From a virus: a stretch of DNA of 35,006 nucleotides. Position 1 is the stretch's first letter. Each line of letters opens with the position of its first letter. This document shows, in pieces, positions 9,490 to 12,934 of this stretch. Position numbers and translations under genes: made by a program. The notes beneath the pieces are model-generated. The model saw only the letters and a list, made by a program, of their open reading frames with translations. It did no database searches and was not told where the DNA came from. The stretch is taken from positions 1 through 35,006 of IMG/VR virus record IMGVR_UViG_3300048597_000144; one strand, written 5' to 3'.

Positions 9490-10112
9490 TCGCGCACCTC
9501 GATCAACGGGATTTCCGGCAACATCACCGTGCGCTTGTTGACGGCGGTGGGCGCCAGGCTGTCGGTATCGAAGCGCACCGGCACGTCGAACAGGAAGCCG
9601 GCGGTCACCGCGATGCCAAAGGCCGGCGGCGTGGCGAAGGTGATGCGGCCGGTGGTGGCATCGACGGTGAAGCCCGAGAAGACCTGGACGCCAGCGCGGG
9701 CGACGAGGACGCTGCCGGCGCGCGGCCGGGTGATGGTGCGGCTGTGCGTGACGGCGCCCGAGACGTAGCGGCGGGTCAGCTGAAAGACCATGTTCGCGCC
9801 GTCGCCGGTGCCGATCGGCTGATCGAGCGCGGTGGGCACAGCCGAGGCGGCGCAGCTCTTGAAGTCGAGCGGGTCGGGATAGCGGAAGCCGCGGGCCTTG
9901 CCGCCGCGCGCATAGAAGAAATCGCGCAGCAGCTCCCATTCGGCAAGCTCGACCGTGCGCGAGCCGACATCGAACGACAGCCGCGCCTTTGACCAGTTGC
10001 GGTTGCGGCTCTCATAGCCCGAGGCCACCTCGACAACATCGGTCGAGAACGATGGGCCCCCACTGCTGCCGAGCGCGAGGCGCACCGGAAAGGCGATATC
10101 GTCGAAGCTCAC
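9486..10112 (-). CDS. DUF2460 distal tail protein (GTA g12-like)
   Basis: A 208-residue protein of the DUF2460/TIGR02217 family. Visible family features are 'FPVRLALGSSGGPSFSTDVVEVASGYESRNRNW' (9-41, broken across the first strand pair), 'ELAEWELLRDFFYARGGKARGFRYPDPLDF' (55-84), and the repeated beta-strand pattern ending 'FLFDVPVRFDTD'. In the GTA virion this is the distal tail protein that joins the tube to the hub. The start is a GTG at 10112 whose GTGA overlaps the stop of the tape-measure gene. It is followed, again coupled, by the hub gene. Confidence 0.88.
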   Translation of the reverse strand: MSFDDIAFPVRLALGSSGGPSFSTDVVEVASGYESRNRNWSKARLSFDVGSRTVELAEWELLRDFFYARGGKARGFRYPDPLDFKSCAASAVPTALDQPIGTGDGANMVFQLTRRYVSGAVTHSRTITRPRAGSVLVARAGVQVFSGFTVDATTGRITFATPPAFGIAVTAGFLFDVPVRFDTDSLAPTAVNKRTVMLPEIPLIEVRE

Positions 10113-11833
10113 AGGCCGCGCCTCCCGCCAGCGCTGGCCCGCGCGAGCCGTGCCGCCGCCTGGCTGCCGGCAAGGCGCACCTGGCGCGGGTTGGAGACCG
10201 GACCGTTGAAGTTGATGACGACGCCCGAGCCCATGGCGCGCGTCGCGCTGGCCGTGGCGATGGTGCCGGCGCCGTTCGGCATAAACATCTCGGGGCCTTT
10301 CTCGCCGACGAGATAGGCAAGGCCGGGCTGCACCGGGCCACCGATGGCCTTGCCGCCGCCGAACAGCCCGCCGAGGAACGATGCCGCCGCACCGAACAAC
10401 CCACCGCCCGAGCTGCTGCCGCCGTCGCCGTTGAACAGGGACTTGAGCCCGGAGGAAATCAGCTCGGCGCCCGCCGAACGGAGGCTGTAGACGAGCACGT
10501 CGCCGAGCGAGCGGCCATAGGCGACGGCGTTGCCCAGGTCCTCTGCCAGTCCTTCGCCGAACCGCTGAGCCCGGTCGAGCAGATCGGGCGTGATGACATC
10601 GATCTTGGGGATTTCGATCGCAGTGACCTTGATGTCCTGGAGCTGCTTGCCGAAGTCGTAGCTGCTGTCGACGATGTCCTTGAGGCCCTGCGAGATGCCA
10701 CCGTCGCGGCCGAGCACGTCCTGCAGCGTGTCGAGCCCGCCCATGCGGACATCGCTGGCGCTGAGGCCCTTGTAGATGTCCTCGGGCGTCTTGCTGCCGG
10801 CGCCGCTGCGAGAGCGCGAGGGCTTGCTGCTGCCGAGGACGGGGCGGTCGGGCCTGGCGGCATTCCGGGCATCCAGCGCTGCGAACGATGTGGCGCCGGT
10901 GACGCCCTTCATCCGGAAACTGCCATCGGCAGCGCCGCGCGCCATCGTGTTCTGGTTACTCTCGGGCGTGCCGAAGAACGTCTCCTGCAACCCTGCGAAA
11001 AACCCGTCCTCCTTGTAGACCTTGGCGAGGCCGGCATAGTAGCGGCCGGCGGCGGGCAAGCCCTTCAACATCGCATCGGTGAGGTTGAACACGGCGTCAG
11101 CCAGGTAGAGGATGCTGTCGGCGTTCTCGGCCACCGTCGTGGCAATCTTGGCCTCAAGAACCGTCTTCATCGCCGACAGCTTGTCGGCAGTCTCATCGGC
11201 CTTTTGGATGTTCTCGTCGGACAGAACGACGCCGAGCTTTTCGGCAGAGGTGGCCAGTTCGTCGACGGCGCTGCGCCCCCCGGCGAGCAGCGTGTCGAGC
11301 TTCTGCCCGGCCTTGCCGAACAGATCGACCTCGATGGCAGCGCGCTTCGCCGGGTCCTCGACCTTGGCCAGCCGCTCGGCGATGAGCCTGATCGCTTCGC
11401 CGGTGTCGAGCTTGGCAATCTGCGCCTGCGAGATGCCCAACTGGCCGAACGCTGCCGTCGCCGAGGTGCTGCCCAGCTTGGCATCGCCGAGCGTCTTGGT
11501 CAGCTTGGCGAGGCCCTTGTCCATCGTCTCCTGATCGATGCCCACCTGCGTCGCCGCATAGCGAAACACCTGGAGGTCCTTCGTCGTCACGCCCAGCTGC
11601 TGCGAGACCTCGCCGAGCGAGGACGCATATTCGAGCCCGCGATTGACAACGCCGACAACGGCATCGATCCCGATACCGGCGACGAGGCCGGCGGCGGCGC
11701 CCTTGAGCACGCCGAACGCCTTGTCGATCTGCCCGACGCCGCGGTCCGCCGCATCCGCCGCCTTTTTCATGTTCGAGATGAACGACGACGATTCGAGCGT
11801 CAGCGAGGTGTAGAGGCTGCCAACTTGTGCCAT
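10109..11833 (-). CDS. Tail tape measure protein
   Basis: A 574-residue protein with the features of a tape measure. The N-terminus is 'MAQVGSLYTSLTLESSSFISNMKKAADAADRGVGQIDKAF' in style, with a hydrophobic glycine-rich stretch at about 42-55. Long helical segments follow ('LGVTTKDLQVFRYAATQVGI', 'DPAKRAAIEVDLFGKAGQKLDTLL'), and the C-terminus is glycine-rich ('GGLFGAAASFLGGLFGGGKAIGG') with 'GPEMFMPNGAGTI'. It lies directly after the G/T tail chaperone genes, which fold this protein, and is coupled to T by TGATG. At about 1.5 angstroms per residue, 574 residues would set a tail of roughly 85 nm; this is a rule-of-thumb estimate. The ORF is open 13 codons further upstream, but the coupled ATG is preferred. 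Confidence 0.88.
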   Translation of the reverse strand: MAQVGSLYTSLTLESSSFISNMKKAADAADRGVGQIDKAFGVLKGAAAGLVAGIGIDAVVGVVNRGLEYASSLGEVSQQLGVTTKDLQVFRYAATQVGIDQETMDKGLAKLTKTLGDAKLGSTSATAAFGQLGISQAQIAKLDTGEAIRLIAERLAKVEDPAKRAAIEVDLFGKAGQKLDTLLAGGRSAVDELATSAEKLGVVLSDENIQKADETADKLSAMKTVLEAKIATTVAENADSILYLADAVFNLTDAMLKGLPAAGRYYAGLAKVYKEDGFFAGLQETFFGTPESNQNTMARGAADGSFRMKGVTGATSFAALDARNAARPDRPVLGSSKPSRSRSGAGSKTPEDIYKGLSASDVRMGGLDTLQDVLGRDGGISQGLKDIVDSSYDFGKQLQDIKVTAIEIPKIDVITPDLLDRAQRFGEGLAEDLGNAVAYGRSLGDVLVYSLRSAGAELISSGLKSLFNGDGGSSSGGGLFGAAASFLGGLFGGGKAIGGPVQPGLAYLVGEKGPEMFMPNGAGTIATASATRAMGSGVVINFNGPVSNPRQVRLAGSQAAARLARASAGGRRGL

Positions 11834-12111
11834 CAGCTTGCCTCCCTCATCTCGTCGTATCGATCGAACCACCCGAGCAGCTTGCTCGCCACGTCGTCAT
11901 CCTCGACCGGCGGTTCCCATGTTTTCAGGAAGTCGGCGGGCGTCGCCGGCTGCCCGCTGCTCGATGCGGCGTTGACCGCCAGCGATGCGAGCAACCGGGC
12001 GGCATCATCGGCGCGCGGCTGACCGAACGGTTCGACCAAGCTGTAGGCCATCCATTCGGTCAGCTCAGCCGAGGACAGCACCGATTGCAGCTCGGCGACG
12101 GTGCGCCCCAT
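11833..12111 (-). CDS. Tail assembly chaperone, gpT-like part (DUF4035-like)
   Basis: A 92-residue ORF from the ATG at 12111. The pattern 'GRTVAELQSVLSSAELTEWMAYSLVEPFGQPRADD' (split at residue 20) is that of DUF4035 and lambda gpT-like minor tail proteins. The frame stays open upstream of this ATG to the end of the G gene. The upstream codons read 'GRRFLFRLALA', which also looks like family sequence. The natural product is therefore probably a -1 frameshift fusion with the G protein rather than a separately started 92-residue protein. It is coupled to the tape measure gene, as expected of a tape-measure chaperone. Confidence 0.75.
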   Translation of the reverse strand: MGRTVAELQSVLSSAELTEWMAYSLVEPFGQPRADDAARLLASLAVNAASSSGQPATPADFLKTWEPPVEDDDVASKLLGWFDRYDEMREAS

Positions 12112-12512
12112 CGCCAGCGCCAGGCGGAACAGGAATCGCCGGCCGGGCCGGCGCGTCAGTTTCCCGCCAGCTCCTCGACATCGCCCTCGGCGATGGCGTT
12201 GAAGCTGAGCACGGCGTCATAGACCCGGCCCAGCGCCGCCGCGCTCTTGCCCCCAAGCGCGACGATGTCCTCCTCGGTGAACAACGGCTTGCCGTCCTCG
12301 CCGACGATGCACGCCGAGGCGTAGCGGGCGCGGACATTGTCGGGCGCCACGAGCCCGTCCTGCCGCGCCTGGTAGACCGCCGTCTCCAGCGCATCGCGGT
12401 CGCGCGCGGTGAGGGAGCGGATGCGGACGGTTCCACCCCACTCCGGCACCGGCACGTCCTTGGTGGGAAGGTCGTGCGCCCCAAGGATGGCGTCGCGGCC
12501 GAGGACCGTCAC
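11833..12512 (-). CDS. Predicted G-T tail chaperone fusion made by -1 ribosomal frameshift
   Basis: A joined product read from 12512 leftward in the G frame to the heptamer GGGAAAC (12165-12159), then in the -1 frame to the stop at 11833, giving about 226 residues. The slip is in register: the zero-frame codons are GGA AAC followed at once by TGA, and stepping back one base gives GGG AAA CTG ACG with no stop until the T ORF ends. In lambda and most long-tailed phages a small fraction of G translation yields a G-T protein that recruits tail tube subunits and folds around the tape measure. The arrangement here matches that rule. The fusion is inferred from sequence; the frameshift frequency is unknown. 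Confidence 0.75.
12137..12165 (-). promoter_or_regulatory. -1 frameshift site: GGGAAAC slippery heptamer plus 3' hairpin
   Basis: On the minus strand the heptamer GGGAAAC (12165-12159) ends directly before the TGA of the G gene, in the X XXY YYZ phase needed for slippage. Five bases later (12153-12137) lies CGCCGG-CCCGG-CCGGCG, a six-pair all-GC hairpin with a five-base loop. Lambda uses the closely similar GGGAAAG at the same gene junction. Heptamer, spacer and hairpin together are a textbook -1 signal. Confidence 0.85.
12156..12512 (-). CDS. Tail assembly chaperone, gpG-like
   Basis: A 118-residue, mainly helical, acidic protein. 'VPEWGGTVRIRSLTARDRDALE' (23-44) and 'EDGKPLFTEEDIVALGGKSAAALGRVYDAVLSFN' (72-105) are the pattern of phage tail assembly chaperones acting between tail tube and tape measure. 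It is the zero-frame product; a slippery sequence overlaps its last codons and leads into the T frame. The start is GTG at 12512, overlapping the tail tube stop (GTGA at 12509-12512). Confidence 0.82.
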   Translation of the reverse strand: MTVLGRDAILGAHDLPTKDVPVPEWGGTVRIRSLTARDRDALETAVYQARQDGLVAPDNVRARYASACIVGEDGKPLFTEEDIVALGGKSAAALGRVYDAVLSFNAIAEGDVEELAGN

Positions 12513-12934
12513 GAGCGGGTCACCGCGCCGGTGATCTTCAACGTCGCGTTCGCCGTGATCTGGCTGCCGACGCGGGCACCATATTGGAAGGCGGTGACGA
12601 ACGCGGTGAAGCTGAGCGTCTTCTGCAAAGGCGTCGACAGCCGGATGCGGAAGTTGCGGCGGGTCTGCGCATAGAAGTCGCTCTCAAGCCCCACCTGCTG
12701 CGCATCGGCCTCGTCGAGGTTCATCTGCAACGAGACGTTACCGAAGTCGGGCAGATCGGCGATGTACTCCTTGGCGTCGGATTCGAGGGTGGTGACCTCG
12801 ATCAGGCCCGTCGAGCCATCCGGCCCGGCAATGTCGCGGATTTCCCCGACGAGCGTGAACACCTCGGGGCTGCCCCCATTGCCGCGCAGCAGCACGGACT
12901 TCTTCGACGCCACCGCGCGGGATGGATTGGCCAT
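12509..12934 (-). CDS. Major tail tube protein
   Basis: A 141-residue beta-rich protein immediately upstream of the G/T chaperones, where the tail tube gene of long-tailed phages lies. Visible features of the tube family are 'VTTLESDAKEYIADLPDFGNVSLQMNLD' (47-74, an immunoglobulin-like strand pair with the inter-ring loop) and 'FRIRLSTPLQKTLSFTAFVTAF' (94-115). It should polymerise into the hexameric tail tube. A good Shine-Dalgarno sequence, CAGGAGA, lies just before the ATG at 12934, in keeping with a need for many copies. It opens a translationally coupled set running through G, T, tape measure and the tail tip. Confidence 0.85.
   Translation of the reverse strand: MANPSRAVASKKSVLLRGNGGSPEVFTLVGEIRDIAGPDGSTGLIEVTTLESDAKEYIADLPDFGNVSLQMNLDEADAQQVGLESDFYAQTRRNFRIRLSTPLQKTLSFTAFVTAFQYGARVGSQITANATLKITGAVTRS

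Follow-up and report, generated by a model that had tools for sequence, protein, structure and literature searches.

Tailed phages use a programmed -1 frameshift to make a little of a longer chaperone, G-T, beside the short protein G. The locus described here raises the question of whether the junction between its own G-type and T-type reading frames is such a site, or whether G and T are two separate proteins. The DNA, 35,006 bases long, is a virus record of IMG/VR, analysed along its whole length (hereafter the window). A sequence-only reading of this stretch had proposed a -1 frameshift signal at the G/T junction. We find that the site is almost certainly a lambda-type G/G-T site of programmed -1 ribosomal frameshifting, a reading supported by family matches, by gene order and by the way relatives keep the phase, the heptamer and the coding in the T frame. 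In lambda, G and G-T are made in a ratio of about 30:1 by a -1 shift on GGGAAAG (PMC5009743), and the arrangement is widespread among long-tailed phages (PMC5009743).

Gene order and family identity

The genes of interest lie on the minus strand in the order capsid, neck and tail-completion genes, tail tube, G, T and tape measure (Table 1); the best matches of the capsid protein among isolates share approximately 39% identity with it. Four features that define the lambda type are present: a G-like chaperone ORF between the tail tube and tape measure genes, a T domain that belongs to the Phage_tail_T family, a -1 frame that is open into T with coding kept from the slip site, and an X XXY YYZ heptamer that is in phase with G and close to its 3' end. 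The G product matched PHROG 344, a family of tail assembly chaperones (E 8e-24), and its match to Pfam TAC_13 fell below the cut-off. The -1 product counted from 12159 scores 56.4 bits against PF06223, where the cut-off is 25.9, and its match to PHROG 337 (E 3e-22) spans residues 5-102, thus beginning upstream of the ATG at residue 17.

Table 1. Features of the G/T junction and its neighbours in the window.
Feature	Positions	Strand	Remarks
Tail tube (major tail) protein, upstream neighbour	12509..12934	-	PF16460, PHROG 158
G-type tail assembly chaperone ORF of 118 aa, with a GTG start that overlaps the tail-tube stop	12156..12512	-	PHROG 344, E 8e-24; viral contigs yield 372 relatives
Slippery heptamer G GGA AAC, in G phase, adjoining the G stop	12159..12165	-	Heptamer in phase in 103/112 non-redundant -1-phase relatives
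G stop codon TGA, distance 0 from the heptamer 3' end	12156..12158	-	Stop at 0 or 3 nt in 75/201 non-redundant loci
T domain in the -1 frame, 108 aa counted from the slip site (LTRRPGRRFLFRLALAMG...)	11833..12159	-	PF06223 Phage_tail_T, E 4e-15; PHROG 337, E 3e-22, residues 5-102
T ORF from ATG as a gene caller would give it, 92 aa	11833..12111	-	ATG without Shine-Dalgarno
Local hairpin, 7 G-C pairs, candidate stimulator	12137..12153	-	3-nt loop, 5-nt spacer from heptamer
Possible longer stem competing with the local hairpin	12115..12153	-	About 12153-12139 with about 12127-12115; related long stems in stop-adjacent relatives
Tape measure protein, downstream neighbour	10109..11833	-	PHROG 9483, E 2e-33

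The slip site and its conservation

On the minus strand, G ends in ...GAG GAG CTG GCG GGA AAC TGA, and since the G frame reads GCG GGA AAC TGA, the GGGAAAC at 12165-12159 stands in X XXY YYZ phase and directly adjoins the stop at 12158-12156. From 12216 to 11833, through the whole of T, the -1 frame contains no stop, and it overlaps G by 58 nt; the claims of the sequence-only reading on the phase of the heptamer and on the open frame are both borne out. In-phase canonical heptamers are rare in the window, and at the window's own rate the chance of meeting any of them within the 58-nt overlap is about 1%. GGGAAAC itself occurs twice on the minus strand of the window and not at all on the plus strand.

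Relatives were gathered with G and with T queries, giving a first set of 115 loci once redundancy at 80% G identity was removed, and an enlarged set of 201 non-redundant loci. T lies in the -1 frame in 112 of the 115, and 103 of those 112 carry a canonical heptamer in phase, where codon shuffling expects 2.6 (an excess of about 40-fold); AAAAAAC (43) and GGGAAAC (30) are the commonest forms. The T-frame residues are kept from the first codon after the slip, as LRxRPERRFYFRLALALGMTV, alike in loci where the G stop adjoins the heptamer and in those where it is distant (36 nt). The closest relative, L002, has 22 differences from the window across G and T, of which 20 are silent (14/16 in G and 6/6 in T) and none falls within 12113-12188. 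Loss of the heptamer or of the open frame in close relatives, which would have spoken against a frameshift, is thus not seen in L002, and phase, heptamer and T-frame coding are kept across more than 100 distinct relatives.

Some 8% of the non-redundant -1-phase relatives are without a canonical heptamer, and the function can therefore evolve other solutions. Five loci with T in the -1 phase (L105, L106, L121, L122 and L123) have no canonical heptamer at the G stop; their G genes end in CAG GAG GAC TGA in four cases and in CAG TCG GAC TGA in L121. In L165, from Nocardiopsis listeri, T lies in the G frame as an apparent in-frame fusion, and in L085 and L194 it lies in the +1 phase. The phase of L085 may be due to a one-base sequencing error, because GCAAAAACG stands there at the place where its relatives show AAAAAAC.

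Origin of the T domain

A T-frame ATG is present at 12111, 45 nt past the G stop, and it offers a footing for an alternative in which G and T are made as distinct proteins, with T started from this codon by reinitiation or by coupling after the G stop. We consider this very improbable for the window. The ATG has no Shine-Dalgarno sequence (best anti-SD energy -2.6 kcal/mol), and the 16 residues ahead of it are conserved T sequence, as the sequence-only reading had surmised when it called the residues between the slip site and the ATG native; they align with the conserved LRxRPERRFYFRLAL. In addition, 47 of the 201 non-redundant loci have no start codon within the first 26 T codons, and heptamers exceed expectation about 40-fold. 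One locus among the relatives does lend the alternative some substance: L184, on an Acrocarpospora pleiomorpha contig, lacks a canonical heptamer and reads GGGGGAATGA, with an ATG that has an SD-like stretch and overlaps the G stop, which suggests that stop-start coupling may stand in place of slippage in some lineages. In the window, T appears to start at the slip site rather than at an ATG, because its frame is conserved from the heptamer onward, and ATG 12111 is probably not an initiation site. Taken together, the conservation of the heptamer and of T-frame coding, the loci without a T start codon, the silent changes in L002 and the want of a Shine-Dalgarno sequence at the ATG show that T, as predicted from sequence, is made as a C-terminal extension of G.

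Downstream structure and the position of the stop codon

A hairpin follows the heptamer, formed by pairing of 12153-12147 with 12143-12137 around the loop CCG and separated from the heptamer by the spacer TGACG. The sequence-only reading had described a six-pair, all-GC stem five bases downstream; the composition and the spacing stand, and the stem has seven pairs rather than six. Upstream, GAGGAG ends 5 nt ahead of the heptamer, and synonymous selection for such SD-likeness was not found in the window's class of relatives (z 0.05), though it is slight in other classes.

Structure was assessed in the 50 nt after the heptamer against synonymous shuffles preserving the T protein, with loci divided into a stop-adjacent class, to which the window belongs (0 or 3 nt from the heptamer to the G stop), and a distant class (33 or 36 nt); the loci are related to one another, and each shuffle draws on the limited sample of codons in its own locus. 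The stop-adjacent loci of the first set gave a mean z of -1.76, compared with -0.13 for the 33/36-nt loci, and control positions in the stop-adjacent class lay near 0. Because this split between classes was noticed after the fact, a validation set was built from four further scans, in which the stop-adjacent mean was -1.79 (n=39) against -0.31 and -0.19 (p = 1e-5); these loci were fetched with T proteins of first-set stop-adjacent members and are therefore new loci rather than independent lineages. The enlarged set gave -1.74 (n=75) compared with 0.01 at the control position, and the signal persists when the long-stem clade is left out (z -1.32) and when the loci are clustered at 55% (-1.63, n=23). 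In the distant-stop class, the downstream control region also tends to be negative (-0.69). The pairing itself is not conserved across stop-adjacent relatives, and local stems of 6 bp or longer reach a frequency of 25%, where 11% is expected. Loci L025, L062, L054 and L280 serve as examples of the downstream structure over these 50 nt.

For the window, the hairpin is probably, though not certainly, a stimulator of the frameshift, because structure is under selection in its class but its own hairpin is not significant alone. A competing explanation, somewhat less probable in our judgement, holds that the frameshift is real and the hairpin no stimulator at all, the heptamer alone slipping enough and the stem arising as a by-product of the GC-rich RRPGRR codons. 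In accordance with this, a heptamer alone has been described as enough in lambda and other tailed phages, the stability of the hairpin is unremarkable for so GC-rich a stretch (z = 0.22 versus dinucleotide shuffles), 12% of synonymous shuffles reach an equal or longer stem, and RNAalifold found no consensus pairs over 48 stop-adjacent relatives. We accordingly rejected the hairpin by itself as evidence on the strength of these z and shuffle values, and as a conserved covarying helix because it does not rise above shuffles. Against the by-product explanation stands the greater downstream stability of the stop-adjacent class in both the enlarged and validation sets, and the 5-nt spacer is the same as that in dnaX (PMC7282821). 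A long stem of the actinophage type was also set aside as the structure of the window: it stands above shuffles over the 48 stop-adjacent loci, yet only 7 of its 12 pairs are possible in the window. In the actinophage clade, the 12-pair stem is encoded by RPERR and FRLAG.

That selection on structure is restricted to the stop-adjacent class, and that 63 of the 201 non-redundant loci have no nucleotide between heptamer and stop, might also be taken to mean that the stop is part of the signal, such that a ribosome waiting at TGA with GGA AAC in its E and P sites would slip, with an efficiency tied to release factor supply. We regard this as unlikely, as stops sit where T coding permits and the structure z does not clearly vary with which stop codon is used. 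Both classes of loci, with adjacent and with distant stops, mostly have Leu as T residue 1; from CTG-A or CTA-R the G frame gains an adjacent stop, and a conserved Leu-Ala encoded by CTA-GCC gives it one at 33-36 nt. Both stop positions follow from T coding and neither calls for a special role of the stop, and stop adjacency as a signal in itself was rejected on this simpler ground. A broader proposal, to which we give an even chance from the sequence comparisons, is that two designs exist: sites with an adjacent stop would use a selected downstream stem as stimulator, the window hairpin being one such, and sites with a stop at about 36 nt would not. A selected stem at stop-adjacent sites would qualify the published statement that certain tailed phages seem to shift without stimulators.

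Proposed mechanism

Under the frameshift reading, most ribosomes would translate G and end at TGA 12158-12156, giving the 118-aa chaperone. A minority would slip back by one nucleotide on G GGA AAC, their tRNAs re-pairing on GGG AAA with CTG as the next codon, and would then read 108 codons into T to yield a predicted G-T fusion of 226 aa. The hairpin, at its dnaX-like spacing of 5 nt, would probably raise the efficiency of this step. By analogy with lambda, the G part is expected to bind the tape measure protein and the T part to recruit the tail tube protein, and the ratio of G to G-T would matter for tail assembly. Second codons AAC have been grouped as mammalian-like (PMC5009743), and how slippery G GGA AAC is may depend on the host.

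Relation to known systems and annotation

The frameshift is already known in kind. Lambda shares with the window the order of tail tube, G, T and tape measure, a heptamer at the 3' end of G and entry by a -1 shift into a Phage_tail_T-type domain, and the claim that its fusion arises from the near-identical GGGAAAG proved correct (PMC5009743). The lambda heptamer ends in G whereas that of the window ends in C, the window's G stop adjoins the heptamer, unlike that of lambda, and lambda is not known to need a stimulator (PMC5009743). The Streptomyces phages phiSASD1 and Dubu have homologous G (42-43% identity) and T, GGGAAAC followed by TGA, and a joined CDS, though they belong to another phage lineage and differ in the sequence and pairing of the downstream RNA. 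The g-t site of haloarchaeal virus HCTV-1 has the same heptamer, G_GGA_AAC (PMC5009743), and differs in its archaeal host. E. coli dnaX resembles the window in its succession of heptamer, 5-nt linker and downstream hairpin (PMC7282821); it differs in its AAAAAAG heptamer, longer hairpin, efficiency of 50-80%, upstream SD stimulator and unrelated gene.

The expectation that automatic annotation would miss the fusion holds in part: the lambda RefSeq record keeps G and T as separate entries, but joined G-T genes are annotated in the related phages Dubu, phiSASD1 and Jflix2, and PRFect predicts frameshift sites of this type (PMC10885494). With the site described here, G and G-T of this virus can be annotated correctly, adding to a textbook case of recoding. 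The start of the neighbouring tape measure gene also bears on annotation. Its ORF is listed from GTG 11872, and an alternative ATG at 11833 overlaps the T stop (TGATG) and is preceded by a strong Shine-Dalgarno sequence (anti-SD energy -10.0 kcal/mol); ATG 11833 is probably the start, being likelier than GTG 11872.
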